Positions 1,713-17,339 of a stretch of 64,000 bases of DNA are shown one piece after another; position 1 is the stretch's first letter; each line of letters opens with the position of its first letter. The DNA lies in the NCBI RefSeq assembly GCF_900142845.1, contig NZ_FSRU01000002.1:682001-746000 (forward strand). The letters are read 5' to 3'. The position numbers and the translations under genes were made by a program. The stretch is from Paraburkholderia phenazinium. Lineage in GTDB: Bacteria > Pseudomonadota > Gammaproteobacteria > Burkholderiales > Burkholderiaceae. The notes beneath the pieces were generated by a model. The model was given only the letters and a program-made list of their open reading frames with translations, was not told where the DNA came from and did no database searches.

Positions 1713-1718
1713 CCCCAC

Positions 1719-1767
1719 TTGCGCAGATCGGACACATCCCACGTGTCACCCGCGCTGAACAGCAAGG
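1719..1767 (+). promoter_or_regulatory. Repeated 50-bp element, copy A (before major capsid gene)
   Basis: Between the scaffold stop and the capsid start lie the blocks TTGCGC (1719), CGGACACA (1729), CCCACG (1738), TGTCA (1744), CCGCGC (1750) and GCAAGG (1762), in the same order and nearly the same spacing as at 17269-17319 before the tail spike. GACAC (1731-1735) can pair with GTGTC (1743-1747), giving a small hairpin. It may be a phage promoter/operator or an mRNA leader structure for strongly expressed structural genes. The match is direct observation; the function is inference. Confidence 0.6.
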
Positions 1768-1789
1768 AGATTCGACTATGACCACTTAA
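1764..1789 (+). promoter_or_regulatory. Three-codon ORF with strong ribosome binding site ahead of capsid gene
   Basis: AAGGAGA (1764-1770) sits 7 bases before an ATG at 1778 that is followed by ACC ACT TAA, i.e. a Met-Thr-Thr peptide. The stop at 1787-1789 runs straight into AAAGGA (1788-1793), the ribosome binding site of the major capsid gene starting at 1803. A ribosome terminating here would be released at the capsid start, so a coupling or standby role is possible. Loss of a former longer gene is the alternative. Confidence 0.45.
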
Positions 1790-1802
1790 AGGAAAGTCCA
1801 TC

Positions 1803-2849
1803 ATGGCACTTCTCGGCGGTACCGCGCTTACGTACGCGGACTGGGCGAAGCGGATCGATGACGATGGCAAGGTTGCCACGATCATCAACCTGCTGTCGCA
1901 GACCAACGAAATCCTCGACGACATGCTCGTCGTCGAAGGCAACCTCCCCACTGGCCACAAGACCACGGTTCGAACCGGTCTGCCATCGGCTACGTGGCGT
2001 CTGCTGAACTACGGCGTTGTCAAGACAAAGTCCACAACTGCACAGGTCACGGACAACTGCGGCATGCTGGAGTGCTTCAGCGAAATCGACAAGGCGCTGG
2101 CTGACCTGAACGGCAACACCGCTGAATTCCGCCTGTCGGAAGACATGGCCTTCCTCGAAGGCATGAATCAGCAGATGGCCGGCACGCTGTTCTACGGGAA
2201 CGTGCAGACGAACCCGGAGCGGTTCATGGGCCTCTCGCCGCGCTACAACACGTCGACCACGGCCAGTGCTCAAACCGCTGTGAACGTGATCAACGCTGGC
2301 GGCGTGGCTTCGACCAACACGTCGATCTGGATCGTGACCTGGGGTCCGAATACCTGTCATGGCATCTTCCCGAAGGGTCAGATTTCCGGTCTGCAGCATT
2401 ACGACCTCGGCGATCTCGTTCCGCTGACCGATGCCAACGGCAACCTCTACCGCGGCTACCGTACCCACTTCAAGTGGGATATGGGCCTCACGGTTCGTGA
2501 CTGGCGCTACATCGTCCGGATTGCCGACATCGATGTGACGCTGCTCTCCGGCGGTTCGGCGGCGAACCTGATCAACGCGCTGATCCGCGGCGTGCACCGT
2601 CTCCCGACGGCGCCGGTGCGTGTGTCGACCGAGCAGAAGTCGGACGCGCCGGACGGCGCAATGATGCAGATGGGTCGCCTCGCGATCTACTGCAACCGTA
2701 CGATCCGCACCTATCTGGACATCCAGGCGGTGAACAAGACGAACGTGCTGCTGCGCCTGGAAGAGTGGGAAGGCAAGGCAATCACGACCTTCCGTGGGAT
2801 CCCGGTTCGCACCTGCGACCAGATCCTGTCCACCGAATCGTCGATCTAA
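1803..2849 (+). CDS. Major capsid protein (BPP-1-like)
   Basis: 348 residues. The N-terminus (ALTYADWAKRIDDDGK, then INLLSQTNEILDDM and the GNLPTGHKTTVRTGLP segment) and the middle GTLFYGNVQTNPERFMGLSPRY are the typical signature of the major capsid family of BPP-1-like podoviruses, which takes the HK97 fold. It forms the icosahedral shell. The gene has its own intergenic leader of 90 bases with a repeated element and a strong AAAGGA site, and is followed by the cement protein 9 bases later, so the two are likely made in similar amounts. A stem-loop terminator lies downstream at 3372-3398. Confidence 0.85.
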   Translation: MALLGGTALTYADWAKRIDDDGKVATIINLLSQTNEILDDMLVVEGNLPTGHKTTVRTGLPSATWRLLNYGVVKTKSTTAQVTDNCGMLECFSEIDKALADLNGNTAEFRLSEDMAFLEGMNQQMAGTLFYGNVQTNPERFMGLSPRYNTSTTASAQTAVNVINAGGVASTNTSIWIVTWGPNTCHGIFPKGQISGLQHYDLGDLVPLTDANGNLYRGYRTHFKWDMGLTVRDWRYIVRIADIDVTLLSGGSAANLINALIRGVHRLPTAPVRVSTEQKSDAPDGAMMQMGRLAIYCNRTIRTYLDIQAVNKTNVLLRLEEWEGKAITTFRGIPVRTCDQILSTESSI

Positions 2850-2858
2850 GGAGCGGCC

Positions 2859-3341
2859 ATGATCATCGATCAAATGCTGGTGTTCGACCAGGGCACCTAC
2901 AGCACGACCACTGGCATGTCGGGGGCGAACCAGTTCGCCTCCGGTGCGACGACGACGAGCACGAACACGATCAACCTCGTGAACGCGCGCGACATCGGGG
3001 CGGGCTCCGTGAACGACAGCGCCGACCTGACGGTTGAGTGGCTGATCACGACCGCCTATACCGGCGGCACGTCGGTCAACTTCCAGATCCTCGGTTCGAC
3101 CAACAACGCAGCGTGGACGGTATATGCCGAGACCGGTGCGATTCCGATCGCGAACCTGACAGTCGGCGCGCGCCTCAAGCTGAAAATGCCGATCGTCAAC
3201 CCGGACGGTGGCCCGGCTCCGCAGTATCTGCAGTTGAACTACGTGAACGGCGGCGCGAATACCGCCGGCGCGGTGATCGCGTGGCTCGGCTCCGTCGACA
3301 ACGCCCGTTACTACCCGCCGGGCATCGTCGTCAACAACTGA
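2859..3341 (+). CDS. Bbp16-family capsid cement protein
   Basis: 160 residues, beta-rich, starting MIIDQMLVFDQG, with conserved NLVNARDIG, TVEWLITTAY, NFQILGSTNNAAW and a C-terminal DNARYYPPGIVV stretch. This matches the Bbp16 capsid cement family, which in BPP-1 clamps onto the outside of the capsid and stabilises it. GGAGCGGCC precedes the ATG. It lies 9 bases after the capsid gene, the normal order, and is the last gene before an intrinsic terminator, so capsid and cement form the natural high-output pair of this operon. Confidence 0.82.
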   Translation: MIIDQMLVFDQGTYSTTTGMSGANQFASGATTTSTNTINLVNARDIGAGSVNDSADLTVEWLITTAYTGGTSVNFQILGSTNNAAWTVYAETGAIPIANLTVGARLKLKMPIVNPDGGPAPQYLQLNYVNGGANTAGAVIAWLGSVDNARYYPPGIVVNN

Positions 3342-3371
3342 GTCTCCTCGGGGTCTTCGGCGGCCCCGTTT

Positions 3372-3398
3372 GCGGCGGGCTTCGGCCCGTCGCTTTTT
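3372..3398 (+). terminator. Intrinsic terminator after capsid/cement genes
   Basis: GCGGCGGGC (3372-3380), TTCG tetraloop, GCCCGTCGC (3385-3393) form a 9-bp stem with one G-U pair, followed by five T residues. A second, smaller GGGG...CCCC hairpin (about 3350-3366) precedes it. It probably attenuates transcription into the tail genes. Confidence 0.75.
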
Positions 3399-3418
3399 AA
3401 CCGGTTGAGGAAATCGCA

Positions 3419-3754
3419 ATGGCATCCCAGGAAAAGAGCAAGGGTGAAGCTCCCGTTCAAATTCCCCGATATCGCCTGACCGAGAAGGCGTACATCAACG
3501 ACATCCTGTATGACCCGGAGGCGCAGAACCCCAACCTCCACGAGGTCGACTACGAAGGCATTCCGGGCCACCACATGGAGCCCGTGAACGAGGCCGCTCG
3601 CGTCATGAAGGAAAAGCATCCCGGCGATTATGTCGACCCGATCGAGGCCATGACAAACATCCGCACTGGGACGGAGAACAGCGCGCTGGTGGATTTCGCC
3701 ACCGTTCTCGCGAATGCCATGTCGCAGGCGAACACCGCCCGGGCGCACTCCTAA
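3419..3754 (+). CDS. Phage structural-region protein of unknown function
   Basis: 111 residues, acidic and soluble, with no membrane segment. Visible stretches are RYRLTEKAYINDILYDP near residues 20-36 and PVNEAARVMKEKHPGDYVDP near the middle. The TTGAGGAAAT sequence ahead of the ATG provides a ribosome binding site. It sits between the cement gene and a small beta-rich protein. Proteins of this size at this point in BPP-1-like phages are usually minor head or head-completion factors, but I do not recognise a family and assign no function. Confidence 0.6.
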   Translation: MASQEKSKGEAPVQIPRYRLTEKAYINDILYDPEAQNPNLHEVDYEGIPGHHMEPVNEAARVMKEKHPGDYVDPIEAMTNIRTGTENSALVDFATVLANAMSQANTARAHS

Positions 3755-3763
3755 GGAGCTGTC

Positions 3764-4120
3764 ATGGGCAAGTTTGGCACTTCCGGGCCAGAGCAGGCCC
3801 AGACCGTCGTGTCGGGTACCTTCGTGGCGACCGGCACGAGCGCGAGTGCTCCGTTCCTCGGCAAGTTCAACTTCGCCCTGTGGGGCACTTTCGCCGGCAC
3901 GGTCAGCCTGCAAAAGTCATACGACGGTGGCTCGACGTGGATCATTGCGCGCGACATGAACGGCAATGCCATGACGCTGACGGCGCCCGACACCCACGTG
4001 GTCGAAGAGGATGAGCCGGGCGTGCTGTATGACGTCACGTGTTCGGCCTATACCAGCGGAACGGTCAGTTACCGAATATCTGCTGGCGCATCGCGCAGCA
4101 ACGACGCGAGGTTCACATGA
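3764..4120 (+). CDS. Small beta-rich phage protein, possible head decoration
   Basis: 118 residues. It is rich in Gly, Thr and Ser with an immunoglobulin-like pattern: FNFALWGTFAGTVSLQKSYDGGSTW followed by EEDEPGVLYDVTCSAYTSGTVSYRIS. This fold type occurs in phage decoration and tail proteins that present repeats of W/Y-anchored strands. AAGGAGCTGTC precedes the ATG. Its stop (4118-4120) overlaps the next ATG (4117-4119), so the two are translationally coupled. The role is inferred from composition and place. Confidence 0.6.
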   Translation: MGKFGTSGPEQAQTVVSGTFVATGTSASAPFLGKFNFALWGTFAGTVSLQKSYDGGSTWIIARDMNGNAMTLTAPDTHVVEEDEPGVLYDVTCSAYTSGTVSYRISAGASRSNDARFT

Positions 4121-4467
4121 GCGACAACATCGTCGACATGGCGCGCAGCAAGGACTTCGACTACGTCGACTGCCCTCCCAATCCCTACCCCTACGGCCTG
4201 CGCATCCAGTTGTGCAAGGAAGATCTCGAAAAGCTCGGGATCGACACGATGCCCGATCTGGGCGACACGGTGGCGTTCTACGTCTGCGGGTGCGTCTGCA
4301 GCACGGCCGAATCGAAGGATGAGTATGGCGAGACGCGCTGCGTCGGCGTCCAGATCGAAAAAATGTCCATCGAAGAGCCGCCCGGCGAGGAAGAGGAAGA
4401 GCGTGCCGACGCAGTGAAGGGCGGCTTCAAGGAAGCTGCCAAGAAAATCTACAAGAAGCAGGGGTAA
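4117..4467 (+). CDS. Capsid-staple-like small phage protein
   Basis: 116 residues. Translation from 4117 (ATGA overlap with the upstream stop) gives MSDNIVDMARSK; the in-frame ATG at 4039 would lie deep in the previous gene and is rejected. The conserved core PYGLRIQLCKEDLEKLGID, then DTVAFYVCGCV and VGVQIEKMSIE resembles the small capsid staple family of podoviruses, whose members link capsomers. The C-terminus is a charged EEEEE and KK-rich tail. Three Cys residues lie in the central part (residues 33, 56 and 58 approximately). Family assignment is from memory of the core motif. Confidence 0.6.
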   Translation: MSDNIVDMARSKDFDYVDCPPNPYPYGLRIQLCKEDLEKLGIDTMPDLGDTVAFYVCGCVCSTAESKDEYGETRCVGVQIEKMSIEEPPGEEEEERADAVKGGFKEAAKKIYKKQG

Positions 4468-4470
4468 TAC

Positions 4471-5235
4471 ATGGCCAGCAGCCAGGTCCAGATCGCGAAC
4501 ATGGCGCTCGACGTGATCGGCACGCGGTCGACCATTGCTAGCCTGACCGAAGGCAGCACCGAGGCCAACGCTATCGCGCGGCATTGGGACAACGCCGTCG
4601 ATGCAATGCTTCGTGCCGCCCACTGGAATTTCGCGCGCAAGCAGATCCCACTTACGCTGTTGCAGGCTACATTCCTTGGTGGAACGGTCCCCACGCCGTG
4701 GACGCATGAGTACGCATACCCGAGCGACTGTGTCCTGCTGCGTCAGCTCGTGCCGCTAATCCAGCCGACCGACGGCGCAACCGCGACTGCGGATTTTGCG
4801 GCCACCAGTGGATCTCCTCTGTCACAAGCCGCCTTTATGGGGCCGCCGGTGCGATTCATCCTTGCGACCGATCTCGACATCAACGGCAACCCGATCGAGG
4901 TGCTGCTGACCAATCAGCCGCAGGCGATCGGCATCTACACCTTCCGCAACACGAACACGTCGATGTGGGACGCGCTCTTCGTGCAAGGCTTCGCCGCTTA
5001 CCTTGGCGCGCGTATCTGCATGGCCTTGACGGGTGACAAGAACACGCAGCGCATGGCGCTGTCCGAAGCGCAGCAGTACGCCAATGATGCGCAACGCATG
5101 AACGGCAACGAGGGTCTGACGGTCATCAATCAGACACCGGACTGGATGCGCGTGCGTGGGTATGAGATGGACTGGGCGTGGCCAGATGGCGGCATGTTCG
5201 GGTTTGGTCCTCAAGCTCTATCGTTGATCGGCTGA
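4471..5235 (+). CDS. Tail tubular protein A-like (head-tail adaptor)
   Basis: 254 residues. The opening SQVQIANMALDVIGTRSTIASL, followed by ANAIARHWDNAVDAMLRAAHWNFARKQ, is the hallmark of the T7 gp11-like tubular protein A family, which forms the ring between portal and tail nozzle. Conserved tail blocks are WDALFVQGFAAYLGARIC and the C-terminal EAQQYANDAQRMNG. It starts 3 bases after the preceding stop and its own TGA overlaps the next ATG (5233-5237), so adaptor and nozzle are coupled as in related podoviruses. Confidence 0.78.
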   Translation: MASSQVQIANMALDVIGTRSTIASLTEGSTEANAIARHWDNAVDAMLRAAHWNFARKQIPLTLLQATFLGGTVPTPWTHEYAYPSDCVLLRQLVPLIQPTDGATATADFAATSGSPLSQAAFMGPPVRFILATDLDINGNPIEVLLTNQPQAIGIYTFRNTNTSMWDALFVQGFAAYLGARICMALTGDKNTQRMALSEAQQYANDAQRMNGNEGLTVINQTPDWMRVRGYEMDWAWPDGGMFGFGPQALSLIG

Positions 5236-8200
5236 TGGGCAACCCGATCATACTTCCGAGTTTCGCCGCCGGCGAGCTGGCGCCGTCGATGTACGGCCGC
5301 GTCGATCTGGCCAAGTATCACGTCGGCGCGGCGTTGCTGCGCAACTACTTCGTGGACTACCGCGGCGGCGCGTCCTCGCGCACCGGAACGTCGTTCGTCG
5401 GCCAGTGCAAGGACAGCACGCAACCCAACCGTCTCATTCCATTCCAGTTCAACACGCAGCAGACCTATGCGCTAGTTTTCGGCGCTGGCTCGCAGTACTA
5501 CTCCGCAACCGTCACCGGAAATTCTTACGACTCTCCGAGTGGACAGATTATCGTCGAGGTGACCTCGACCTCTGGCCTGACCAGTGGCGAGCGGGTTGTG
5601 ATCGCCGGTACGCTCACGGCCGGCACTGGCGGTGGCGCGCGTCCCACGTTCGACGGTACTTACAGCGTCACTGTGATAGACAGCACGCACCTTTTGCTGC
5701 AGGGGAGCACTTATGTAAAGCCGTGGGTTTCCGGCGGTACCGCGACCGCGTCCGGGGGAAGCCTTCGCTTTGTCACAAACGGTGGCTATGTACTGGAGAT
5801 AGGTACGGCGATAACGGGTATATCCCAGGCTAATCCGGGCGTTGTGTCCGATCCGGGCCATGGATACAGCAATGGCGACCTGGTGCTTCTTCAAGGTATC
5901 GTCGGCATGACGCAAATGAATCAGCGGTTCGGCGTCGTGGCGAATGTGACGACGAACACGTATACGCTAACGGACATGTATGGCAACCCAATAAACACGG
6001 TTGCTTACAGTGCGTATGTGTCCGGTGGCACAGCCGCGCGAGTCTACACGCTCACGACGCCGTACGACGCATCCGACCTGGCGCTGCTGAAATACACGCA
6101 GTCGGCTGACGTCATGACGCTGGTGCACCCCAGCTATACACCGCAGACGCTGACGCGATCGGGAAACGCCGACTGGGCGCTGGCTGCAATAACTTTCCAG
6201 CCGGCCAGCGCTCCTCCGGCCAGTTCGACCGTGAACGAAACGGAGACCGGGACGCAATACCCGAACACCGTCTACAGCTACCAGGTTACCGCAGTGGTGA
6301 ACGGTGTGGAGAGTCTCCCGACGCCGCCGTGCACGACGGCCGGCATTCCTGCCCTGAGCCAGAACGTGGGCGCATTCAATGTCGTTTCATGGTCGTCTGT
6401 CACGGACGCGACTGTGTACAACATTTACCGGACGCAGGAAAACTTGGGCACGAATCCGCCGGCGGGCGCCCTTTTCGGTTATATCGGCTCCGCCAATCCG
6501 GCGACCACAAATACGTTCAACGACGACAATATCCTGCCGGATTTTACAAATTGCCCACCGCAGGCATATGACCCATTCACCGTTGCCGGGAACCCGGGCT
6601 GTGTGTGCTATTACCAGCAACGTCAGGTTTTCGCTGGCATGTCGAACGCTCCGGAGCAGATGGACTTTTCGAAGTCGGGCGACTTCTTCAACATGGACTT
6701 CTCGATTCCGTCGAAGGATGACGACAACATTGAGATCACGATCGCGAGCCAGCAGGTCAATGCGATCGAATTCATGATCCCGATGCAGAGCCTGCTGGTG
6801 CTGACGTCGAGCGGCGCATGGGCTGTCAGCGGCGGAACATCTGGCGCGGCCCTGACGCCATCCCAGGTTCAGGCGTTGCCACAAGCCTATAACGGCTGCA
6901 GCAGCTACTGTCCCCCGATCGCAATCAACTACGACATCCTGTATGTGCAGGCCCGCGGGTCGATCGTTCGTGACCTCGCGTACAACTTCTATGTGAACCT
7001 GTACACCGGCACCGACATCACCATGATGTCGAATCACCTGTTCTTCGGGCACCAGATACTGGAGTGGGCTTACGCCGAGGAGCCATTCAAGCTGATCTGG
7101 TGTGTGAGAGAGGATGGCATCCTGCTTTCCCTCACCTATCTGAAAGAACAGGACGTCATGGCATGGGCACACCATGACACGGAGGGGCTGTTCAAGAGCG
7201 TCTGTTCGGTGATCGAGGGCGAGGAGAACGTCGTTTATGTGATTGTGGAGCGCTTCATTCAGGGGCAGTACCTTCAATATATCGAGCGCTTTGCGAGCCG
7301 TCAGCTTGGCGGGGATCCGACGATTGGTCTGGCGGCGAATCCATCTCTGGCGTGGTGCGTAGACGCCGGGCTTCAGTATCCACTGAACGCGCCCGCCGCG
7401 ACTCTAACGCCCGTAGAAACGGATGCTATCCCCATTATCAGTGCCGTTAATCTTATTGCCGGCGGCCAGAACTACAGCACGCAGACGGTGATCAACATCA
7501 CGGATAGCACGGGGACTGGTGGCATCATTTCGCCGGTCATCGTGGGCGGCGTCATCACGGGCGCCGATATCCTTGAGGAAGGCATTGGTTGGACTAACCC
7601 GACATTGACGGTTTTCGATCCCACGGGGGCTGGATCGGGCGCTGCACTGCAAACCATCCTGGCTAGTCCGGTAACGATGAATGCCAGCGCTGCAGTATTC
7701 GGCTCGACGCAGGTGGGTGATGTGGTTCGCATCAACAACGGAATGGGCTATGTAATGTCTATTCCGAACCCCAGCCAGATCGTCGTTAATGTCGTCAATG
7801 CGCTGACCGGAACATGGCCGGCCAGCGCAGGAACGTGGTCGGTAACGACCCCGGCGCAGACGATTAGCGGACTAGACCATCTCGACGGGCAAACCGTGTC
7901 GGTACTCGCCGATGGAAGCGTCGCACCGGCTCAGGTAGTGGTCAATGGTGCCATCACGCTGGACCGCGCCTACAGCTCGATTACGGTGGGCCTGCCGTTC
8001 ACTTGCCAGTTGCAAAGCCTGTACATCGACGTACAGGAACAGGGCGGCACGATCCAGAGCAAGCGAAAGACCATCCCGGCCGTCACCGTTCGGGTGCAGG
8101 ACTCGCGCGGCGTCTTCGCTGGACCCACTTTCAACACCCTGATCCCGATCAAGGAGCGGACGACCGAAGCCATGGGGCAGCCGATCCAACTCTTCACGGG

Positions 8201-8324
8201 GGACCAGCGCGTCGTACTACCGGCGAATTACAACGTGCCAGGCCAGATTTGCGTGCAGGTCACGGACCCCTTGCCGTCGACGATTCTGGCGCTCATTCCC
8301 GAAATCGTGGTGGGCGACAACTGA
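5235..8324 (+). CDS. Tail nozzle / tubular protein B-like, enlarged
   Basis: 1029 residues from the ATG at 5235, which overlaps the upstream TGA; an in-frame ATG at 5178 lies inside the upstream gene and is rejected. The N-terminus (PSFAAGELAPSMYGRVDLAKY, then LRNYFVDYRGGASSRTG) is the standard start of the podoviral nozzle family. A beta-rich insert with FDGTYSVTVIDSTHLLL and a fibronectin-like TVYSYQVTAVVNGVESLP unit follows, then the conserved QRQVFAGMSNAPEQMDFS block near 480-500. Two Gly-rich loops (around 750-800) look like added surface modules. T7 gp12 has 794 residues, so this is longer. Confidence 0.75.
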   Translation: MGNPIILPSFAAGELAPSMYGRVDLAKYHVGAALLRNYFVDYRGGASSRTGTSFVGQCKDSTQPNRLIPFQFNTQQTYALVFGAGSQYYSATVTGNSYDSPSGQIIVEVTSTSGLTSGERVVIAGTLTAGTGGGARPTFDGTYSVTVIDSTHLLLQGSTYVKPWVSGGTATASGGSLRFVTNGGYVLEIGTAITGISQANPGVVSDPGHGYSNGDLVLLQGIVGMTQMNQRFGVVANVTTNTYTLTDMYGNPINTVAYSAYVSGGTAARVYTLTTPYDASDLALLKYTQSADVMTLVHPSYTPQTLTRSGNADWALAAITFQPASAPPASSTVNETETGTQYPNTVYSYQVTAVVNGVESLPTPPCTTAGIPALSQNVGAFNVVSWSSVTDATVYNIYRTQENLGTNPPAGALFGYIGSANPATTNTFNDDNILPDFTNCPPQAYDPFTVAGNPGCVCYYQQRQVFAGMSNAPEQMDFSKSGDFFNMDFSIPSKDDDNIEITIASQQVNAIEFMIPMQSLLVLTSSGAWAVSGGTSGAALTPSQVQALPQAYNGCSSYCPPIAINYDILYVQARGSIVRDLAYNFYVNLYTGTDITMMSNHLFFGHQILEWAYAEEPFKLIWCVREDGILLSLTYLKEQDVMAWAHHDTEGLFKSVCSVIEGEENVVYVIVERFIQGQYLQYIERFASRQLGGDPTIGLAANPSLAWCVDAGLQYPLNAPAATLTPVETDAIPIISAVNLIAGGQNYSTQTVINITDSTGTGGIISPVIVGGVITGADILEEGIGWTNPTLTVFDPTGAGSGAALQTILASPVTMNASAAVFGSTQVGDVVRINNGMGYVMSIPNPSQIVVNVVNALTGTWPASAGTWSVTTPAQTISGLDHLDGQTVSVLADGSVAPAQVVVNGAITLDRAYSSITVGLPFTCQLQSLYIDVQEQGGTIQSKRKTIPAVTVRVQDSRGVFAGPTFNTLIPIKERTTEAMGQPIQLFTGDQRVVLPANYNVPGQICVQVTDPLPSTILALIPEIVVGDN

Positions 8325-8782
8325 TGCTCGGCGAACTTGTCACCGCAACGCGAACGCACGCACTCATGATGGCGCCGCATATGCGCGCCGCCGAGGTGCG
8401 CGAGATCATGGCGTCTGACGGGCTGACCCCGATCAGGGGCCTGCTGCGCGAACTCGATCGATCGTCGTCCGCGTGGTCGTGGATCATCGACGGCGAGGTG
8501 GCGTGCATGTTCGGCATCATCACGCCGTACCTGCTCGATCAGGAAAGTTACCCGTGGATGCTCACCACTCCTCTTGTGGAGAGTAACTCGAGGCAGTTCG
8601 CGCGTGCATGCCGGGCGCTTTTGCCTGAATTGCTGGCAGTCCACCCGAAACTTTCCGGTATGGTCGACGCAAGATATGAGTTGTCGGTGCGCTGGTTGGG
8701 CTGGCTTGGCGCTAAAATTAGTAGTCCTGAGCCATGGGGCGCCGAGGGTGTCCCGTTCTGCAGATTCGAAATAGGAGCCTGA
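8324..8782 (+). CDS. T7 gp13-like internal virion protein
   Basis: 152 residues from the ATG at 8324 that overlaps the nozzle stop. It starts MLGELVTATRTHALMMAPHMRAAEVREI and contains SWIIDGEVACMFGI, PWMLTTPLVESN and a C-terminal WLGWLG...PEPWG...FCRFEI, the pattern of the gp13 (DUF2833) family with an acetyltransferase-like fold. In T7-type phages it is needed for assembly of the internal core/ejection proteins. The next gene begins 1 base after its stop, and the order gp13-14-15-16 is preserved here. Confidence 0.75.
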   Translation: MLGELVTATRTHALMMAPHMRAAEVREIMASDGLTPIRGLLRELDRSSSAWSWIIDGEVACMFGIITPYLLDQESYPWMLTTPLVESNSRQFARACRALLPELLAVHPKLSGMVDARYELSVRWLGWLGAKISSPEPWGAEGVPFCRFEIGA

Positions 8783-8783
8783 T

Positions 8784-9317
8784 ATGGGATTGGCCGTTCT
8801 TCCCGCCGTAGCGTTGGCGGCGACCGCAGTGGGCGCCGGAGTGAGTGCGTACGGCGCGATCGAGAATGGCGAAGCGCAAAAGTCGGCAGCGAACTACCAG
8901 GCTCAGGTCGCGAGCAATAACGCGCAGATCGCAAACCTGAACGCGAATGCCGCAATCCAGACCGGAAACACGCAACTGCAAGCGGCGCAGGAGCAGGCAT
9001 CACAGCATCAGGGCATGATCCGGGCGGTGATGGGTGCTGGCGGAATCGATCTGAATTCCGGGAGCGCGCTGCGCAATCAGGAAGGTGAAGCCGAAGTTGA
9101 TCAGCTCAACGAGGCGACGATCACGAGCAATGCCGCCAGATCGGCGTGGAACTATCGCAACGAAGGCGCAGACTATACCGCTCAGTCGGGTCTGGAGACG
9201 ATGCAGGGAGAGCAGGCCCAGTCTGCCGGGTTCATGAGCGGCTTCTCGTCGATGCTGTCTGGAGCGGGGCAATTTGCCAATACGTGGAACAAGTTCTACC
9301 CGTCGCCCACTTCGTAA
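8784..9317 (+). CDS. T7 gp14-like internal virion protein B
   Basis: 177 residues. A hydrophobic Ala/Gly/Val-rich N-terminus (about 2-26) is followed by a long Gln/Asn/Ala-rich helix with a strong coiled-coil look, then EGEAEVDQLNEATITSNAARSAWNYRNE. This is the gp14-type core protein, which is ejected first and forms the outer-membrane pore in T7. ATAGGAGCC precedes the ATG. The order between gp13-like and gp15-like genes supports the call. No enzymatic motif is seen. Confidence 0.72.
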   Translation: MGLAVLPAVALAATAVGAGVSAYGAIENGEAQKSAANYQAQVASNNAQIANLNANAAIQTGNTQLQAAQEQASQHQGMIRAVMGAGGIDLNSGSALRNQEGEAEVDQLNEATITSNAARSAWNYRNEGADYTAQSGLETMQGEQAQSAGFMSGFSSMLSGAGQFANTWNKFYPSPTS

Positions 9318-9325
9318 GGTAAGCC

Positions 9326-11605
9326 ATGCCAGTTCTGCCAACCCTTGAATCCTCGCAGAGCGTTTTTAATAACGTCGCCCTTCGGCCGCAAGAAATCCAG
9401 TCGAGCCCGGCTGATTTCGGCGCGCTGGCGGGTGAGGCTGCGAAGGGCATCGGTCAGGCTGCTGAAGGCGCGGGCGCACAGGTTGCCGACGCCGGGCTGC
9501 GACAGCTTGACCTGCAGAGGGAGGCGAACGCGAATCAGTCATATACTGGATTCGCAAGTGACTCGCGCGCCCTGACGGACAAACTCTTCGCCTTGCAGGG
9601 CCAGGATGCGATCACTCAGGCTCCCCAGATCTCCGGGCAGTTGAATACCCTTCGTGAGCAGTATCGCGATCAGCTGAACGATCCTGTTGCGCAGCAGATG
9701 TTCGATCAGGTATCGATGCGTCACACAGAAATGACGCTCGACGAGGTTTCACGCTTTGCCGACGTGCAGACCAAGACCTATCAGCATCAGGTCTCGGATG
9801 GCATGGTGAACACCTTCCAGCAGAGCGCAGCGCGGCACTGGAATGACCCGAACGCGTTTAACGGTGACCTGGCCAATATAGTTTCGGAGCGTACCGCGCA
9901 GGGGCAGTCGGAAGGTCAACCGGTTGAATACACTAACGCGCTGATTCAGCGCGATACCAGTTCCACATGGATCGATCGCCTTAAGGGAATGGCAGCGGCC
10001 GGCACCGCTCAGACCGCTCTTACGCTTTTGAATAACGGCGAGGACTGGACAGACTCGACTGGGCGCACTCGACATACGGACATCCGCTCGCAGATCCTGC
10101 CTCAGGACCTACCTGCTATCCAGTCTGAGCTTTCCTCGCACGCCGCCGACCAGATTGGCGTGAGCTACGGCAACACCGCGACGGCCCCGGCGGCGGCATC
10201 CGGCGCGATTCCCGGTATCCGGAACAACAACCCGGGCAATCTGAAAGACCCGGCGACGGGCCAATTCCAGACCTTTGCCAGCCAGCAGCAAGGCATCCAG
10301 GCGGCAGACGCCAATCTGCTGGCCTACCAGACGAAGCACGGCATCAATACGATCGACGGCATTGTGAACCGGTGGGCGCCTCAGGGCGACGGCAACAACA
10401 ATCCGGCGGCGTATGGTGCAGCGGTGGCGAAAGCCACCGGCATAGGTGCCGACCAGAAAATCGACCTGACCGACCCGGCGGTTCGCACGAAGGTGCTGAA
10501 CGCGATGCTCGACGTCGAGACGCCGGGATGGCGCAGTGCGGCTAACCAAACCCCTGCTGGCGCAGCGCCAGGTGCAGTAAGTGGAACACTTCCTGTAGGC
10601 AATGCCGCGGGCGTGCCGAATGCCGCGCAGATCGCGCCGCCTCCTGTCGGGCTGGCGCAGGACCCGGCGCAGATGAGGGAAAATCAGGATGCCGCTGCCG
10701 AACAGGCGAGGCAGGCCGCGCAAGCGCACGTGCTCCAGTTGACCGGCGATCCCATCGCGGCGAAGCGCGCGGGCGACGTAGCCGCCTCGACGGTGGTGGG
10801 CAATACGAATGCTGCGATCGCCGCCCAACAGTCCCGTCAGCAGGTTGCGTCTGGCACGCTGGCCAAGATGATCGCGGGCGATCCTACGAACGGCACTCAG
10901 CCCATCACGTCGATGGCGCAGCTCGTAGCTGACCCGGTCGCCTACGCGAATTTTCGGCAGCTCTCGCAGGAGGGTCAGGCGGCCGTGACAGAGCGGCTGT
11001 CGAACCCGGCCAAGGTGCAGATGACGCCTCAAGGGTTCAACACCTACTACCAGCTCCGCGGACAGGCCATCAACGACCCCGGCAGTTTTTCGAAGCAGGA
11101 CCTGTCGAAACTGTACGGCACTCTTCCGGAGGCGCAACTCGGCGAGCTCGTCAATCTGCAGATGACCATTGGCAAGGGTGATGCTGCGCAAGCGCAGAAG
11201 TCACTCGATTGGTCGCGTACGAAGGGCGATGTCGACGACATGCTCAAGCCGCTCGGGCTGGGCGCTACCGCAAAGTCGGGGAGCGACGAGGCAAAGACCA
11301 CCGAGCAGTTCTACGGGAAGCTGCAGGCGTCGCTCGAGCAGTATCACGACCAGAACCAGAAATACCCTGACACGGCCACTACCCGCAAGCTCGCTGGCGC
11401 TTTGCTGGTGCAGGGCACGCAGGGAGACTCAAGCATCCTGCCTTCATGGCTCGGCGGCGCGCAGACCATGCCCGCGTTCCAGTCACCCGACATGTCGAAG
11501 TTCCACGCTCCGCAGAACGACAAAGGCTGGTCGCTCCACATCGACAAGAACGGCAATCAGGCCTACGTGAGCCCTGACGGCAAACAATTCCAGGCGGTCC
11601 AGTAA
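9326..11605 (+). CDS. gp15-like internal virion protein with murein-hydrolase-like domain
   Basis: 759 residues. The first 280 residues are helical and Gln/Ala-rich, as in ejection proteins. Residues about 290-395 form a compact domain beginning IRNNNPGNLKDPATGQFQTF and containing GINTIDGIVNRWAP and NNPAAYGAAVAKATG; this NNNPGN...RWAP pattern is typical of virion-associated peptidoglycan hydrolase domains that open the murein layer during DNA entry. The remainder is helical and similar in style to gp15. TAAGGTAAGCC precedes the start. The TAA stop overlaps the ATG of the next gene by one base. Confidence 0.7.
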   Translation: MPVLPTLESSQSVFNNVALRPQEIQSSPADFGALAGEAAKGIGQAAEGAGAQVADAGLRQLDLQREANANQSYTGFASDSRALTDKLFALQGQDAITQAPQISGQLNTLREQYRDQLNDPVAQQMFDQVSMRHTEMTLDEVSRFADVQTKTYQHQVSDGMVNTFQQSAARHWNDPNAFNGDLANIVSERTAQGQSEGQPVEYTNALIQRDTSSTWIDRLKGMAAAGTAQTALTLLNNGEDWTDSTGRTRHTDIRSQILPQDLPAIQSELSSHAADQIGVSYGNTATAPAAASGAIPGIRNNNPGNLKDPATGQFQTFASQQQGIQAADANLLAYQTKHGINTIDGIVNRWAPQGDGNNNPAAYGAAVAKATGIGADQKIDLTDPAVRTKVLNAMLDVETPGWRSAANQTPAGAAPGAVSGTLPVGNAAGVPNAAQIAPPPVGLAQDPAQMRENQDAAAEQARQAAQAHVLQLTGDPIAAKRAGDVAASTVVGNTNAAIAAQQSRQQVASGTLAKMIAGDPTNGTQPITSMAQLVADPVAYANFRQLSQEGQAAVTERLSNPAKVQMTPQGFNTYYQLRGQAINDPGSFSKQDLSKLYGTLPEAQLGELVNLQMTIGKGDAAQAQKSLDWSRTKGDVDDMLKPLGLGATAKSGSDEAKTTEQFYGKLQASLEQYHDQNQKYPDTATTRKLAGALLVQGTQGDSSILPSWLGGAQTMPAFQSPDMSKFHAPQNDKGWSLHIDKNGNQAYVSPDGKQFQAVQ

Positions 11606-14600
11606 TGGCTGGCTTCGATCTCGATTCCGCGCAACCGATCGGCGGCGCGCCGACGGCCGCACCGGCGCCTTCGGATAACGTGTTCGATCTGGCCACGGCC
11701 AAGCCGATCGGTCAGGCTCAAACGCTGCAAGCCGCGCAGGGCGTCGCGGTGGCAAACAGCGAACAGAGCGCGGATGCTGCCGGCCGTGCGGCAGGTATCG
11801 CGAAACAGATTGGCGCGCCGCAGGCTGCTGTCGAGACAGACCTCCCGCGCTACGAAGCTCAGGCCAAGGCGCAGAACAACGCACAGATCCTGTCGCAAAG
11901 CCCGAGGCTGGCGGACTGGGTGGCGAACAATCCGGACAGCGCGCGCGTCGCACAGGATGACTTCGACGGCATGTCCCAACTCGAGGGGTTGACGTCGGCG
12001 CAATCTGCGCAGGCGCTGACCGCGACCAAGGACATGCTGACGGGCTTGGCGAAAGGCGTCGGCTCGTCGTTCACAAGCTCAGCGCTAGCGCTTAACCGGG
12101 CCGTCGGCGGTGGCTTGAGTCTCCTTGACAAGGCCACCGGCACGGACGCTGGCGACTGGTGGTATCAGCGCATGATTGAGCCGGCGCTTGCGAACCGCCA
12201 GGCTCTCGCCGAACCCGCGACTGCGCCGTTTGGCGTGAAGGCCGCGGACACCGTCGGCAATATGCTAGGCCTGCTGGCGCAGGTTGCGTTGACAGGCCCT
12301 GCTGGCGCCGAGGCCCAGACCGCAGAAGCAGCTCCCGGCGTTGCGCAAGCCGTTGGGCAGACAGTGGCGCACGGCGCGCGCGCAATGGCGTTCCCTGCAC
12401 TGACGTCGGCGGTCAACACCGGAAAGGATGTTTATGATCAGACGGGTGACATGGCGCAGGCCATCAAGGCCGCGCAGATGTCGTACGCCACAACGACACT
12501 CGGCGGTATCGTACCGCTCGGCGCGGAGGGGTCGCTTGCTTACCGTCTTGCGACGGGAGCGGCATCGGGAGTCGCAACGGGCGAAGTAAGCCGGCAAGCG
12601 ATGAATCTCGTCATGCCGCAACAGGAAGGATTCGACCCAGAGCAAACCATCCTGTCGGGTCTGTCAGGCGCGATGCTTTCCGGCGTGATGGGCCGCAGTC
12701 CTCTGCACGACGCTGTGCAGCAGGCTTATCAGGTCGGGCTCGATGCCGAGACGGCCGAGCGCGGCGGCGCGACCGTGCAGCAGATCAGCCAGATTGCCCA
12801 GGCGTCGAAGCTTCGAACGCATGATCCTGAAGCCTTCCGCAACTATGTCCAGCAGGTCAGCGAAGACGGCCCAGTGTCGAACGTGTATGTGGACGGCAAG
12901 ATGCTGGCGGATGCGCTGCATCAGTCTGCTGTCGACCCGAGCCAGATTCCCGGCTTGCCCGATCGACTCAACGAGGCCGTGGCCACCGGCGGTGACGTCC
13001 AGATCCCGATCGCGGACTATGCAACGCACATCGCTGGCACGGACCTCGACAAGGTCATCCTGCCTGAGCTGAAAACGGAAGAGGGCGGTATGACCTATTC
13101 CGAGGGACAGGCGTTTTACCAGAATGCCCGCGACGAGATGCAGGAGCGTGCCAACGGCGTAGTCGATGAGACGACGAACGCCGGCACGACCCAGAAGGAA
13201 TTGGGCGATATCAGCGACAGCCTGACGAGTCAGATCGCAGCGACGGGCCGCTATCCGGCCAATGTCGGCCGCGCGAGCATTGAGCCTGCAGTTCAGTTCT
13301 ACCGGACAATGTCCGAACGCATGGGAATCTCGCCGGCCGAGTTATTCGACCGCTACCCGCTGCGCATTGTTGGCGAGGATATGGGGGTCGGCCTGCAGCA
13401 GTCGGAGCGCGGTGCGTTCAATCCCGACACCAATACTATAGCGCTGCTGAAGGATGCCGATTTGTCGACCGCGCTGCACGAGTCGGGGCATTTCTTCCTG
13501 TCGACGTTGGGCGATCTGGCTGGTCGCGAAGATGCGCCGCAGCAGATCAAGGACGACATGCAGTCGTTCCTGACGTGGGCCGGTGGCAAGGATCTGGCCG
13601 ACTGGCAGGGGCGCACACTCGAGCAGCAGCGCACCATGCACGAGAAGTTCGCCCGCGGCTTCGAGTCGTATCTGATGGAAGGGAAGGCGCCGACGATCGA
13701 GATGCAGTCGCTGTTCTCGCGCTTCCGTTCATGGTTGATGAACGTGTATCGCAACATGACGGCGTTCCATGGCGCCGAGCCAAACGACGAAATGCGGGGC
13801 GTTTTCGACCGCATGCTGGCGAGTGATGAGGCTATCCAGCGCGCCGAGCAGGTACGCGGGTATCTGCCGCTCGACGTGAAAGCCGCTGGCGCCTCGGATG
13901 CGCAGCAGGCAGCTTACGCGCGTCAGGGTGAGCAGGCCACCCAGGACGCAATCCGGGACATGCAGGCGAAGTCGATCAAGGACATGCAGTGGATGTCGAA
14001 AGCGCGCGGCAAGATCATCCGCGAGATGCAGCGACAACACGATGTGCTGCGCGACGAGGTCCGCGAGAAGGTTGCACTCGAGGTGATGGACCAACCCGTC
14101 AACCTTGCCCGCACATTCCTCGAAACCGGCGAAAGCACGGACCCGCGCACGGGCGACCGCGTCAGCGCAGAAGAGGGCTACAAGCTTAACAGCGATGCGC
14201 TCAAGCGCATGTACGCCGAAGACACCTACCCGCCAGACCTCACGAAGCTGCGCGGCCTGACGGCGAAGGGCGGCATGCATCCGGATGACGTCGCCGACCT
14301 GTTCGGCTATCGCAGCGGCGACGACCTGGTGCGCGATCTGATCAATGCCGAGAAGCCGAAGGCGGCTACCGAGCGCCTGACCGATGAGCGCATGCTGCAG
14401 GAGCACGGCGAGTTGACCGACCCGCAGGCGATCGAAGACGCGGCCAATCTTGCAGTTGCGAACCATGCTCGCGCACGCTTCATGGCCACCGGCCTGAAGA
14501 TCCTGAGCAATTCCGATATCCCGGCCACCGAACTGGCTAAGGCCGCACAGGCGACTGCCGAGCGGATGATCGCCGGCAAACGCGTGCTCGAGCTCAACCC

Positions 14601-17250
14601 GCGACAGTACGAGGTCGCAGAGGCCAAGGCGAACCGCGAAGCGATCACAAAGGCGCCGAAAGACCCGAAGGGCGCCGTCGAATCCCAGCGACAGGCGTTG
14701 CTCAGTAACCGGCTGGCCCGCGCCGCTCGCGAGGCGCAGGCCGAGGTCGACAAGATCGTTGCGGAGCAGAAGCAGTACGACAAAGCGAGCATCCGCAAAA
14801 AAATGGATCTGGACGTGCTCGAGCAGATCGATGCGCTGCGCGAGCGCTTCGACTTCCGCCGCAACCCGCCTGACGAAAACCAGAAGACCGCCGGCCAGAA
14901 GAGCCTGAGCATGTGGATTCGCTCGCAGCAGGACCTCGGTTATTCGCCACTCGTCAACCCGGACATGACGAACCCCGCCGTGCGTATGCCGTATCGTGAA
15001 ATGACGGTCGAGCAGATCCGCGGCTTCCGCGACACGATCCACTCACTGGAGACGATTGCCCGCGCGCGCAAGAGCGTCACGGTGGAGGGCCAGCAGCGCG
15101 ACCTGGCGTCGGTAGTCGATGAGCTGGTGGCGAAGATGAAGGAAAAGCCGGACCAGTTCCAGATCGAGGATCTGGTCGAGAAGCCGCGCTCCGGCGTCGA
15201 CAATCCGATGAAGGTCGCGCTCGACCGCGTATCCAGCTTCCTGCGCGCGACGGCGGCCGAGCTCAAACCGCAGCAGTTCAAGGCGAACCAGTTCGACGCG
15301 CAGGAAATCCTCGGCCCCTTTACGCGTACGATGTTCGACCGGGTATTCAGCGCGAACTATCAGAAGGTGGACATGCTCAAGAGCCTGTCCGATTACTTCG
15401 GCAATGCCGTCAAGGAAAAGCTCGGCCAGGAGTGGCAGGATCGGCTCACCGAAGAGGTGCCGAATAACCGCCTGCTCGACGCTGATTTGAGCAAAGAATT
15501 CGGCCCGAAGGTCTACCGGCGCCTGACGCGAGGCGACATGTTGGGCATCGCGCGCAACGTCGGCAACGAGTCAAACTTCGAAAAGCTGACGAAGGGTATG
15601 GACTGGGATCCTCGCGACGTCTGGCTGTTCCTGCATGACAACATGACCGAAAAGGACTGGCAGGCCACCCAGATCACGTGGGACGCCTTCGAGCAGCACT
15701 GGCCGGAAATGGTCGAGATGAACAAGCGCCTCGGCAACACGTCGCCAGACCGCGTCGAGCCCCGGCCGTTCCAGACCAAGTTTGGCGAGATGAAGGGCGG
15801 CTACGCGCCGATCGATTACGATCCGATCCGCTCACGCCTCGGCGCGCGCAAGCAGGACTCGGCTGCGATCGACCCGAGCGAGGGCCTGTTCGGCAAGGGC
15901 TACTATCGCGCCGACACCACGACGAACGGCTCGCTGAACGGCCGGATTGAAGGCTACTTCGACCGCGTCAACCTCGATTACCACTCCCTCGAAAAGCGCC
16001 TGCACGACACCGTGCACGACCTGGCGTACCGCGAAGCGCTGATTGACGTCCACAAGATCCTGATGAACCGGGACTTCGCGAAGCAGTTCAAGCTGTCGAA
16101 TGGCCCGGAGCAGTACAAGTCCATGCAGCGGTGGCTGGGCAATCTGGCGAACTCCCAGAACATGGAGGACAAGAGCAGCCGGCTCGTGGCCATCATGTCG
16201 TCTGCTCGACGGGCGATCGTCGCGAACGGCATCGCGCTACGCATCTCTACGGTGCTCAAGCACGGCGGCAGCGCGGCGCTCAAGTCCACCGGCTATTTCA
16301 GTGGCGGCGGCCAGAAGTACTTCGCCGCGCGCATGGCGGCGATCGGGTTAAACCACAGCGCAGAGGTCGAGGGAGCGATCGAGAAATTTCCAGAGATCCG
16401 CGCACGGCTGATGCAGCAGGACCGCGACTACCGACAGACGTCGGCCAGCCTGTTCCAGCCAGAAAGCCTGCATGCCAAGGCAGAGCGCTTTGGCCACTCG
16501 ATGGTGGCGTGGTCGGACATGATGACGGCCGTGCCGACCGCTTGGGCTGCGTACGACCGCGCGATCACGGAAGGTATCCCGAAGAACCGCGGCGGCACTG
16601 GCCAGCCCATGAGTGAAGCCGATGCCATCTCCTACGCAAACCAGATCGTGCGGGAGGCGCACGGCAGCAATATTGAGGCCAGCCGCTCGATGATTCTCGC
16701 CGAACGCAACGAAGCGATCAAGATGTTCACGACGCTCTACGGCTTCATGAACAACACACTCGGCCAGAACATGGACATAGTCGACAAGCTGCGCACGAAT
16801 GGCTTCAGCAAGCCGGAGGTCCTGTCGCGCTATCTGATGGCGATGATCGTGCCGGCGCTGTGGGCGGGCGTGCTGGCGAAACCCGACAAGAAGGAAGGCG
16901 TTGCGAAATGGGCTATGGGGGCAATCGGCGGCGAATACGCTTCCATGGTGCCCATGATGCGAGACGCGTGGTCAGCGATCCAGGGCTACAGCTCGGCCGG
17001 CATGCCGGCGTACATGTCGGCGCTCGGCGCGATTGCCAAACCGGTCGAGGACATCGTTAAGAGCGTCGAAGGTAAACCCGTCAAGGCGCCGATCAAGGAT
17101 TTTGGCAATGCGATCGGCCTCGCTATACCAGGTGCCGGACAGGTCGGGACTACTATACAATATGCGGCAGACGTGAAAAGCGGTAAGCAACAGCCTAAAA
17201 ACGTTGTCGATGTCGCGCGCGGACTCGCGCTTGGGCAAGGCAATCAGTAA
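11605..17250 (+). CDS. Giant gp16-like ejection protein with HEXXH metallopeptidase motif
   Basis: 1881 residues, starting in a TAATG overlap. Position, size and helical composition make it the counterpart of T7 gp16, ejected into the cell with the DNA. Two copies of FDLxxAxPIG occur at about residues 4-13 and 27-36. Residues 625-629 read HESGH within TALHESGHFFLSTLGDLAG, followed about 65 residues later by EKFARGFESYL, whose Glu could be the third zinc ligand of a gluzincin-like site. C-terminal hydrophobic stretches (SRYLMAMIVPALWAGVL near 1750) fit membrane contact. T7 gp16 has a transglycosylase domain instead, so the enzymatic module differs. Confidence 0.75.
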   Translation: MAGFDLDSAQPIGGAPTAAPAPSDNVFDLATAKPIGQAQTLQAAQGVAVANSEQSADAAGRAAGIAKQIGAPQAAVETDLPRYEAQAKAQNNAQILSQSPRLADWVANNPDSARVAQDDFDGMSQLEGLTSAQSAQALTATKDMLTGLAKGVGSSFTSSALALNRAVGGGLSLLDKATGTDAGDWWYQRMIEPALANRQALAEPATAPFGVKAADTVGNMLGLLAQVALTGPAGAEAQTAEAAPGVAQAVGQTVAHGARAMAFPALTSAVNTGKDVYDQTGDMAQAIKAAQMSYATTTLGGIVPLGAEGSLAYRLATGAASGVATGEVSRQAMNLVMPQQEGFDPEQTILSGLSGAMLSGVMGRSPLHDAVQQAYQVGLDAETAERGGATVQQISQIAQASKLRTHDPEAFRNYVQQVSEDGPVSNVYVDGKMLADALHQSAVDPSQIPGLPDRLNEAVATGGDVQIPIADYATHIAGTDLDKVILPELKTEEGGMTYSEGQAFYQNARDEMQERANGVVDETTNAGTTQKELGDISDSLTSQIAATGRYPANVGRASIEPAVQFYRTMSERMGISPAELFDRYPLRIVGEDMGVGLQQSERGAFNPDTNTIALLKDADLSTALHESGHFFLSTLGDLAGREDAPQQIKDDMQSFLTWAGGKDLADWQGRTLEQQRTMHEKFARGFESYLMEGKAPTIEMQSLFSRFRSWLMNVYRNMTAFHGAEPNDEMRGVFDRMLASDEAIQRAEQVRGYLPLDVKAAGASDAQQAAYARQGEQATQDAIRDMQAKSIKDMQWMSKARGKIIREMQRQHDVLRDEVREKVALEVMDQPVNLARTFLETGESTDPRTGDRVSAEEGYKLNSDALKRMYAEDTYPPDLTKLRGLTAKGGMHPDDVADLFGYRSGDDLVRDLINAEKPKAATERLTDERMLQEHGELTDPQAIEDAANLAVANHARARFMATGLKILSNSDIPATELAKAAQATAERMIAGKRVLELNPRQYEVAEAKANREAITKAPKDPKGAVESQRQALLSNRLARAAREAQAEVDKIVAEQKQYDKASIRKKMDLDVLEQIDALRERFDFRRNPPDENQKTAGQKSLSMWIRSQQDLGYSPLVNPDMTNPAVRMPYREMTVEQIRGFRDTIHSLETIARARKSVTVEGQQRDLASVVDELVAKMKEKPDQFQIEDLVEKPRSGVDNPMKVALDRVSSFLRATAAELKPQQFKANQFDAQEILGPFTRTMFDRVFSANYQKVDMLKSLSDYFGNAVKEKLGQEWQDRLTEEVPNNRLLDADLSKEFGPKVYRRLTRGDMLGIARNVGNESNFEKLTKGMDWDPRDVWLFLHDNMTEKDWQATQITWDAFEQHWPEMVEMNKRLGNTSPDRVEPRPFQTKFGEMKGGYAPIDYDPIRSRLGARKQDSAAIDPSEGLFGKGYYRADTTTNGSLNGRIEGYFDRVNLDYHSLEKRLHDTVHDLAYREALIDVHKILMNRDFAKQFKLSNGPEQYKSMQRWLGNLANSQNMEDKSSRLVAIMSSARRAIVANGIALRISTVLKHGGSAALKSTGYFSGGGQKYFAARMAAIGLNHSAEVEGAIEKFPEIRARLMQQDRDYRQTSASLFQPESLHAKAERFGHSMVAWSDMMTAVPTAWAAYDRAITEGIPKNRGGTGQPMSEADAISYANQIVREAHGSNIEASRSMILAERNEAIKMFTTLYGFMNNTLGQNMDIVDKLRTNGFSKPEVLSRYLMAMIVPALWAGVLAKPDKKEGVAKWAMGAIGGEYASMVPMMRDAWSAIQGYSSAGMPAYMSALGAIAKPVEDIVKSVEGKPVKAPIKDFGNAIGLAIPGAGQVGTTIQYAADVKSGKQQPKNVVDVARGLALGQGNQ

Positions 17251-17268
17251 GTAATGCTAATGTAATTC

Positions 17269-17319
17269 TTGCGCTAGCCGGACACACATACCCACGCTGT
17301 CAGCCGCGCAACCGCAAGG
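17269..17319 (+). promoter_or_regulatory. Repeated 50-bp element, copy B (before tail spike gene)
   Basis: TTGCGC (17269), CGGACACA (17279), CCCACG (17291), TGTCA (17298), CCGCGC (17304) and GCAAGG (17314) repeat the order seen at 1719-1767. GACA (17281-17284) can pair with TGTC (17298-17301), as in copy A. Both copies begin shortly after the stop codon of the previous gene and precede a structural gene needed in many copies. Unlike copy A, the GCAAGG here is 20 bases from the start codon and cannot serve as the ribosome binding site. Confidence 0.6.
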
Positions 17320-17339
17320 CAACCCTTCCAGGTGCTGCC

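Follow-up and report, generated by a model that had tools for sequence, protein, structure and literature searches.

A repeated, folded element before the capsid and tail spike genes of a Paraburkholderia phenazinium prophage, a candidate cis-acting RNA module

The DNA analysed here, a window of 64,000 nucleotides (nt) at positions 682,001 to 746,000 of contig NZ_FSRU01000002.1 of Paraburkholderia phenazinium, contains part of a prophage in which an element of roughly 50 bp occurs twice, once before the major capsid gene and once before the tail spike gene. This raises the question of what one element might do at both places. Phages commonly transcribe their late genes into long mRNAs that many genes share, yet the demand for capsid, spike and minor proteins differs greatly. 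The initial annotation had offered a phage-specific promoter, an operator or an mRNA leader that boosts capsid and spike; of these our analysis supports the leader and not the promoter or the operator. In favour of the leader, the helix arms of the element covary, some of its pairs are G-U on the + strand only, translation starts lie next to it, and relatives keep it before both genes. The folded RNA segment probably controls the timing or strength of the production of both proteins, and we consider it fairly likely that, in the late mRNA, the leaders of the capsid cistron and the spike cistron each contain a structured RNA, carried by the phage and acting in cis, that controls the initiation of translation. 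As neither copy matched any of 4227 Rfam families (E ≤ 5), the leaders in the loci of six relatives gave no Rfam match at E ≤ 1, and a literature search, beyond whose reach most subscription journals lay, returned no description of it, the element is best read as a new cis-acting RNA module.

The repeat and its folded core

All six sequence blocks from which the repeat was first recognised are present, in the order then given, at 1719-1767 and 17269-17319, and the six-block pattern has only these two matches in the window when both strands are searched. Local alignment of the two gap sequences scored 56, against a maximum of 37 in 5000 shuffles and next-best scores elsewhere in the window of 38 (copy 1) and 40 (copy 2). 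The covariance model R2, trained partly on the two window copies, found just these two at E ≤ 1 in the bacterium's own 8.5-Mb genome (8e-14 and 1e-11), and it covers 1716-1769 and 17266-17321, so that the similarity extends slightly beyond the six blocks. The setting is likewise as first described: most genes of the operon overlap or abut, the gaps that contain copy 1 and copy 2 measure 90 nt and 89 nt, and the 77 nt behind the gene at the cement position form the only other internal gap above 10 nt, according to a gene list that was partly set by hand; a further gap of 207 nt follows position 20786.

Leaders of relatives were collected through capsid-gene searches, which gave 29 loci in genome contigs and the best 80 of 196 in IMG/VR; the upstream sequence was inspected for 57 of those 109 capsid loci, and spike leaders were added through searches with the spike N-terminus and with the pattern. 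Removal of identical or near-identical copies (L026, L035, L039, L043, L044, L114, L115, L118, L130, L131, L132, L138, L140, L142 and L144-L149) and of L120, which runs off the contig end, left 16 distinct capsid and 9 distinct spike leaders, those of the window included. L003, which has a degenerate core, was excluded from the flank-swap test described below and retained in the counts of inner-helix pairing, mini-open reading frames (mini-ORFs) and capsid-leader folding; L185 was used in the flank-swap test only, having been added after the inner-helix count, the spike folding and the RNAalifold analysis.

Common to the leaders is a core in which an outer helix (P2) and an inner helix (P3) are separated by an internal loop, whose 3' side has ACC(C) or another AC-rich sequence like it, and P3 is capped by an AC-rich apical loop of mostly 10-13 nt. 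It reads CGGACACAUCCCACGUGUCACCCG in copy 1 and, as a second example, CGGCUACACCUUCACACAGCCACCCG in L042, L117 and L121. The hairpin GACA...TGTC, to which the initial annotation had drawn attention, is possible in both window copies, where it corresponds to P3. The positions in the window are as follows.

1716..1769, + strand: element copy 1, in the leader of the major capsid gene (six blocks; R2 E 8.8e-13, this copy being in the training set)
1719..1724, + strand: strand 1, the 5' arm of P2, TTGCGC, of which GCGC pairs (sequence; flank-swap test, 24 leaders, p 0.0002)
1731..1734, + strand: 5' arm of P3, GACA (P3 pairs 4/4 in 20/24 leaders)
1744..1747, + strand: 3' arm of P3, TGTC (P3 pairing count over the leaders)
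1752..1755, + strand: 3' arm of P2, GCGC (flank-swap test)
17266..17321, + strand: element copy 2, in the leader of the tail spike gene (six blocks; R2 E 6e-15, this copy being in the training set)
17268..17273, + strand: strand 1, CTTGCG, with the pairings TTGCGC:GCGCAA (P2) or CTTGCG:CGCAAG (sequence; spike-leader folding)
17281..17284, + strand: 5' arm of P3, GACA (P3 pairing count over the leaders)
17298..17301, + strand: 3' arm of P3, TGTC (P3 pairing count over the leaders)
17306..17311, + strand: 3' arm of P2, GCGCAA (RNAalifold consensus of 8 spike leaders)

Both helices covary. The arms of P3 occur as GGCU:AGCC, GGCC:GGCC, GGCU:GGCC, GACA:UGUC, GGCA:UGCC and GGGA:UCUC, and with the arms placed by hand they pair at all four positions in 20 of 24 leaders (permutation p 0.014, 10 distinct arm combinations). 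The 12-nt flanks outside P3 pair better in their native combination than when swapped between leaders (mean helix score 12.6 vs 9.7, p 0.0002, n = 24), with p 0.0008 in the capsid leaders (n = 15) and p 0.11 in the spike leaders (n = 9). RNAalifold returned P2, P3 and a hairpin at the translation start from 8 spike leaders, with double-sided changes in at least one leader at 5 of the 21 pairs, and a MAFFT alignment of 9 capsid leaders (A2) was 82.8% paired vs 78.3% when shuffled, 3 of 500 shuffles being as high. L036 and L116 contain pairs that are G-U on the + strand, as expected of an mRNA, and copy 2 together with its start hairpin folds significantly (z -2.4). Judged from these alignments, the element appears to possess the conserved, covarying secondary structure that characterises riboswitches, at modest depth, among related sequences and less clearly on A2.

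Translation starts beside the element

Each of the nine distinct spike genes that bear the element starts with TTG, a rare start codon, which forms the end of a TGCCTTG that pairs with CAAGGCA of the element. An ATG start was seen in the 8 element-free spike homologues (L119, L122-L127 and L168), 7 of them distinct since L124 equals L125, the starts of L124-L126 being extrapolated from a match at residue 13 or 14. The window's spike gene probably starts at the TTG at 17340, because alignments with PHROG tail profiles and with epsilon15-type tailspikes begin at residue 1 of its product.

17315..17321, + strand: 5' arm of the start hairpin, CAAGGCA, overlapping strand 2 at 17313-17318 (hairpin z-scores; RNAalifold)
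17336..17342, + strand: 3' arm of the start hairpin, TGCCTTG, which contains the TTG start (z-scores; folding; RNAalifold)
17340..19688, + strand: tail spike gene with TTG start (PHROG tail families and epsilon15-type tailspikes align from query residue 1)

The start hairpin lies below its shuffles in all seven leaders tested (z -2.2 to -4.8), and its apical part varies and is usually paired around the Shine-Dalgarno sequence. The TTG has an unpaired probability of at most 0.01 in the free ensemble of all eight spike leaders folded. The spike start is thus predicted to be buried at rest, which would fit repression or conditional expression at least as well as the boosting first proposed. Strand 1, CTTGCG, has two possible partners: TTGCGC can pair with GCGCAA, as in P2, or CTTGCG with CGCAAG, part of which belongs to the 5' arm of the start hairpin. 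Although not part of P2, the first C of CTTGCG does not vary among the 8 aligned spike leaders, and in L113 the P2 partner is changed and both CTTGCG and CGCAAG are unchanged; the alternative pairing is therefore favoured, albeit not proved. When this open state is forced, the unpaired probabilities of the TTG letters range from 0.02 to 1.0. Two further ideas on the spike leader were abandoned. A coding element does not apply, as the leader is not in frame, the stretch from GCAAGG to TTG measuring 29, 31 or 32 nt in 7 spike leaders, and pairing of a loop CACCUU with the spike Shine-Dalgarno sequence AAGGUG was visible by eye in leaders of the GGCU type (e.g. L112) and not in L111, L113 and L116.

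In 12 of the 16 distinct capsid leaders, the element ends in a Shine-Dalgarno sequence followed by a mini-ORF, that is, ATG, two more codons (three in L055) and a stop, often as TAGGAG, which lies in or beside the capsid Shine-Dalgarno sequence. The expectation from base shuffles is 0.17 per 16 leaders, and element-free capsid leaders had none (0/33). For L046 the mini-ORF and capsid-folding counts used a capsid start placed one codon downstream of the correct one, which leaves the former count unaffected.

1764..1769, + strand: AAGGAG, Shine-Dalgarno sequence of the mini-ORF, overlapping a strand able to pair with strand 1 (sequence; mini-ORF and folding analyses)
1778..1789, + strand: mini-ORF ATG ACC ACT TAA, its stop beside the capsid Shine-Dalgarno sequence (comparable mini-ORF in 12/16 distinct capsid leaders, 0/33 controls)
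1803..2849, + strand: major capsid protein gene (PHROG 212 major head protein, E 1e-90; tblastn matches to epsilon15/BPP-1/BcepC6B)

With a Shine-Dalgarno sequence, an ATG, very few codons and a stop before the main Shine-Dalgarno sequence, these 12 leaders have the layout of a cis-acting minigene and may function as such. The lambda bar minigenes are mini-ORFs known to act in cis, and they share with the leaders described here, as does the axe-txe minigene, a tiny ORF with its own Shine-Dalgarno sequence just upstream of the main gene. The two-codon minigene of axe-txe is reported to act in cis (PMC8708949). The mini-ORF of the element differs from that of axe-txe in having three codons (four in L055), in recurring across these capsid leaders and in standing next to structured RNA.

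L143 and L045 lack the mini-ORF; their capsid Shine-Dalgarno sequence is buried in a hairpin (z -6.6, reached by 0 of 500 shuffles, and -2.5, respectively), the 5' arm of which is, by eye, complementary to strand 1 too. L143 has the same three-strand layout in other letters (GCUUCACG / CGUGAAGCUCC / GGAGCUUCAC). The Shine-Dalgarno sequence of L034 is also predicted to be paired, in a weak hairpin (z -1.2), and L003 is without mini-ORF. Sequestration of the mini-ORF Shine-Dalgarno sequence by strand 1, with anchors set by hand in the folding of the capsid leaders, was discarded as a general rule and kept as a possibility; in the window copy the pairing probability is 0.92.

Occurrence in related phages

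Conservation in related phages had been named at the outset as the check on such an element, and relatives do keep it before both the capsid and the spike genes. Among the 57 capsid loci inspected upstream, 24 have at least 80% capsid identity, and the element is present in 17 of these (in degenerate form in L003) and absent in 7 (L040, L041 and L047-L051). The record of the phage itself (G395) and the records G396 and G397 each contain a capsid-leader copy and a spike-leader copy, both of them clear model matches, and elsewhere in each record the model reaches E 0.29 at best. In G399 and G400 the element is confined to the capsid leader; these two copies rest on reading of the sequence, because the model match is weak (G399, E 0.03) or absent (G400). 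In G401, the phage of L040, the element is absent. Just before the spike start of G399 (L122, start at 5001), where the element would be, we noted by eye a GC-rich hairpin with a T run that resembles a terminator.

Model searches of bacterial genomes led to further spike leaders. In Herbaspirillum sp. ASV7 (5.8 Mb), model R1 recovered its training capsid copy and one further clear match (C216:5639, E 3e-9; the next had E 0.07), a spike leader with the TTG hairpin that was outside the R1 training set, though similar spike leaders were in it. R2 found, over 398 genomes of the host family, one more genome besides the bacterium's own, G184, again with a spike leader, which stands close to the end of a prophage remnant and directly behind a different gene, by eye a scaffold-like one. 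By eye, this remnant on contig 9 (L185, L188, L189) comprises an integrase-like gene, replication genes, the scaffold-like gene and the spike gene with its leader, followed by bacterial genes; a deletion may possibly have removed the block from capsid to injection protein. R1 misses the GACA-type copies of the window, which R2 finds, and its three matches in 399 genomes of the order (L181, L182, L183) lie inside coding sequence and look like chance. These scans over hundreds of genomes used stricter filters and E ≤ 1e-4, so weak copies could be missed. The pattern matches L128, L129, L133, L136 and L141 looked unrelated and were dropped, and inspection of the weak matches L163 and L164-L167 revealed nothing resembling the element.

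A blastn search of 50,697 phage records with the window capsid leader and the L117 spike leader, in which diverged copies could be missed, gave no match, and this includes the Bcep22- and BPP-1-like phages to which the initial annotation had pointed; the window spike leader returned just 5 short matches, in plasmids and unrelated-looking. The phage resembles podoviruses of the BPP-1/epsilon15/BcepC6B type in its capsid protein and in the N-terminal part of its spike protein, and differs from BcepC6B in the gap before the capsid gene, which is 9 nt in BcepC6B vs 90 nt here.

Proposed mechanism and alternative explanations

It might be hypothesized that the core hairpin serves as the recognition module for a putative trans-acting factor and is joined to different output parts on what is presumably a single late mRNA. 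The output in spike leaders would be the second hairpin, burying the TTG start and the Shine-Dalgarno sequence; in some capsid leaders (L143, L045 and, weakly, L034) it would be a hairpin burying the capsid Shine-Dalgarno sequence, and in most, including that of the window, a Shine-Dalgarno sequence with a mini-ORF of three codons (four in L055), the stop of which touches the capsid Shine-Dalgarno sequence. In the spike leaders, as well as in L143 and L045 when judged by eye, strand 1 could also pair with the 5' arm of the burying hairpin; a bound factor might therefore shift the balance towards pairing of strands 1 and 2 and open the start. Left of the terminase block, the window's phage and G397 have no protein in common (for frames of at least 45 codons, tblastn E ≤ 1e-3); the factor, if phage-encoded, is therefore likely to be a packaging or virion protein, and otherwise it would be a host factor or ligand. 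A regulator could not be singled out from gene content, by which, shadow frames left out, only the phage's own small terminase combines matches in G396 and G397, both with two copies of the element, with the lack of a match in G401 (all pieces) and in the examined pieces of G399 and G400. We take this protein as no more than a lead, as the comparison covers few records and is confounded by kinship. Repression by the factor, release by the factor and simple processing or stability are all compatible with these data.

Several observations weigh against a structured leader that switches translation. P3 is broken or short in L113, L033, L045 and L003, and double-sided pair changes in A2 do not exceed those of shuffles (4 vs 3.2), so that the support from this alignment is moderate. 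The spike P2 and the outer start hairpin hardly vary and therefore yield little covariation signal, as seen in the flank result for that group, and because the leaders are related the p-values are optimistic. The two window elements alone fold non-significantly (z -1.1 and -0.6), and whole capsid leaders are no better folded than shuffles, with z below -2 in 1 of 16. Forcing the alternative pairing in the spike leaders costs 3.6-8.5 kcal/mol, and even in the open state the GG of the Shine-Dalgarno sequence stays mostly paired (unpaired probability at most 0.21). Pairing of strand 1 with the mini-ORF Shine-Dalgarno sequence reaches a probability of at least 0.9 in only 3 of 11 leaders, the window copy among them, and the switch is therefore weak for the mini-ORF type. 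Finally, 7 of the 24 relatives at 80% capsid identity or above do without the element, including L040, L041 and L051 at 87-89%.

An alternative explanation would be mRNA processing or stability, whereby endonuclease cleavage leaves a stem-loop at the 5' end of the product, which shields the capsid and spike portions of the late mRNA and prolongs the life of these two cistrons. The hairpins stand soon after the preceding stop and before two structural genes, and a two-codon mini-ORF was reported to raise expression in cis in a toxin-antitoxin operon, possibly via mRNA protection (PMC8708949). We regard this as rather unlikely, as it leaves unexplained the TTG inside a conserved hairpin in all nine spike leaders and the mini-ORF, and a protective hairpin would not need the conserved loop sequence. 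A DNA element, namely a phage-specific promoter or an operator for a late regulator before both genes, would fit a motif repeated in two of the larger gaps and the extra transcripts that abundant proteins might require. However, a scan limited to the sigma-70 type returned no site in 1500-1850 and none on the + strand in 17100-17400, where the single site is on the - strand, upstream of the element; there were likewise no intrinsic terminators (GC stem plus T run) in 1500-1850 and 17100-17400, and the promoter and terminator readings were given up on these scans. Moreover, the arms change with pairing kept, which is unusual for a double-stranded site, and G-U pairs occur on the + strand, so we judge such a DNA element very improbable. 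We give hardly any credit to a module linker, at which homologous recombination would swap the capsid or spike block without a regulatory role: presence and absence among near relatives and the G184 remnant, with spike and leader directly behind a different scaffold-like gene, would agree with it, but the capsid and spike copies of G396 and G397 differ outside the core, and pairing rather than sequence is kept.

Control of translation by a structured leader has two kinds of precedent. Translational riboswitches combine a conserved aptamer with a variable expression platform, and the element is similar to them in that a conserved hairpin module is joined to different start-burying outputs and in the three-strand complementarity of the spike leaders (by eye also of L143 and L045). 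It differs from them in that its module is very small and occurs twice in one operon before virion genes, in that any ligand is putative and in that most capsid copies have the mini-ORF and not a burying hairpin. Phages also use protein-binding translational operators, such as the coat operator of MS2/R17 and that of T4 gene 32 autoregulation; here, too, a hairpin stands at the start of a phage cistron, whereas sequence and layout of the element are different and the binding protein is putative. A factor from among the packaging or virion proteins would be in keeping with these cases, given that none of the proteins encoded left of the terminase block is common to the phage and G397. By analogy, the action of the element would resemble that of translational leader switches or of phage translational operators, with putative membership in either class.

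More tentatively, it might be speculated that these phages possess a new family of RNA switches: a single small sensor hairpin, combined with any of three exchangeable outputs (buried start codon, buried Shine-Dalgarno sequence or mini-ORF of three to four codons), would sense a virion component and keep capsid and spike synthesis in step by feedback from assembly in a tailed phage. Independently of this, a conserved RNA module that stands before just the capsid and spike genes would provide a direct handle on the post-transcriptional setting of stoichiometry or timing, and natural examples of a conserved mini-ORF that serves as output and of a phage genome in which a single RNA module is used twice.

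The window includes only the right part of the prophage (1-23160), the first 19,294 bases of the 42,454-nt record G395 lying to its left. In the gap behind the gene at the cement position (3342-3418), a GGGC-TTCG-GCCC hairpin followed by TTTTT was seen by eye, which resembles an intrinsic terminator within the late operon. A protein of 118 residues encoded at 3764-4120 is without PHROG match; it has no tblastn match in G401 or in the examined pieces of G400 and has such matches in G396, G397 and G399. At the right end of the prophage record, 22189-23160 and 23110-24222 are possible cargo genes: one ORF there has by eye what we take to be a patatin-like GTSGG motif, and the ORF on the opposite strand presumably encodes an acyltransferase-like membrane protein, also judged by eye.

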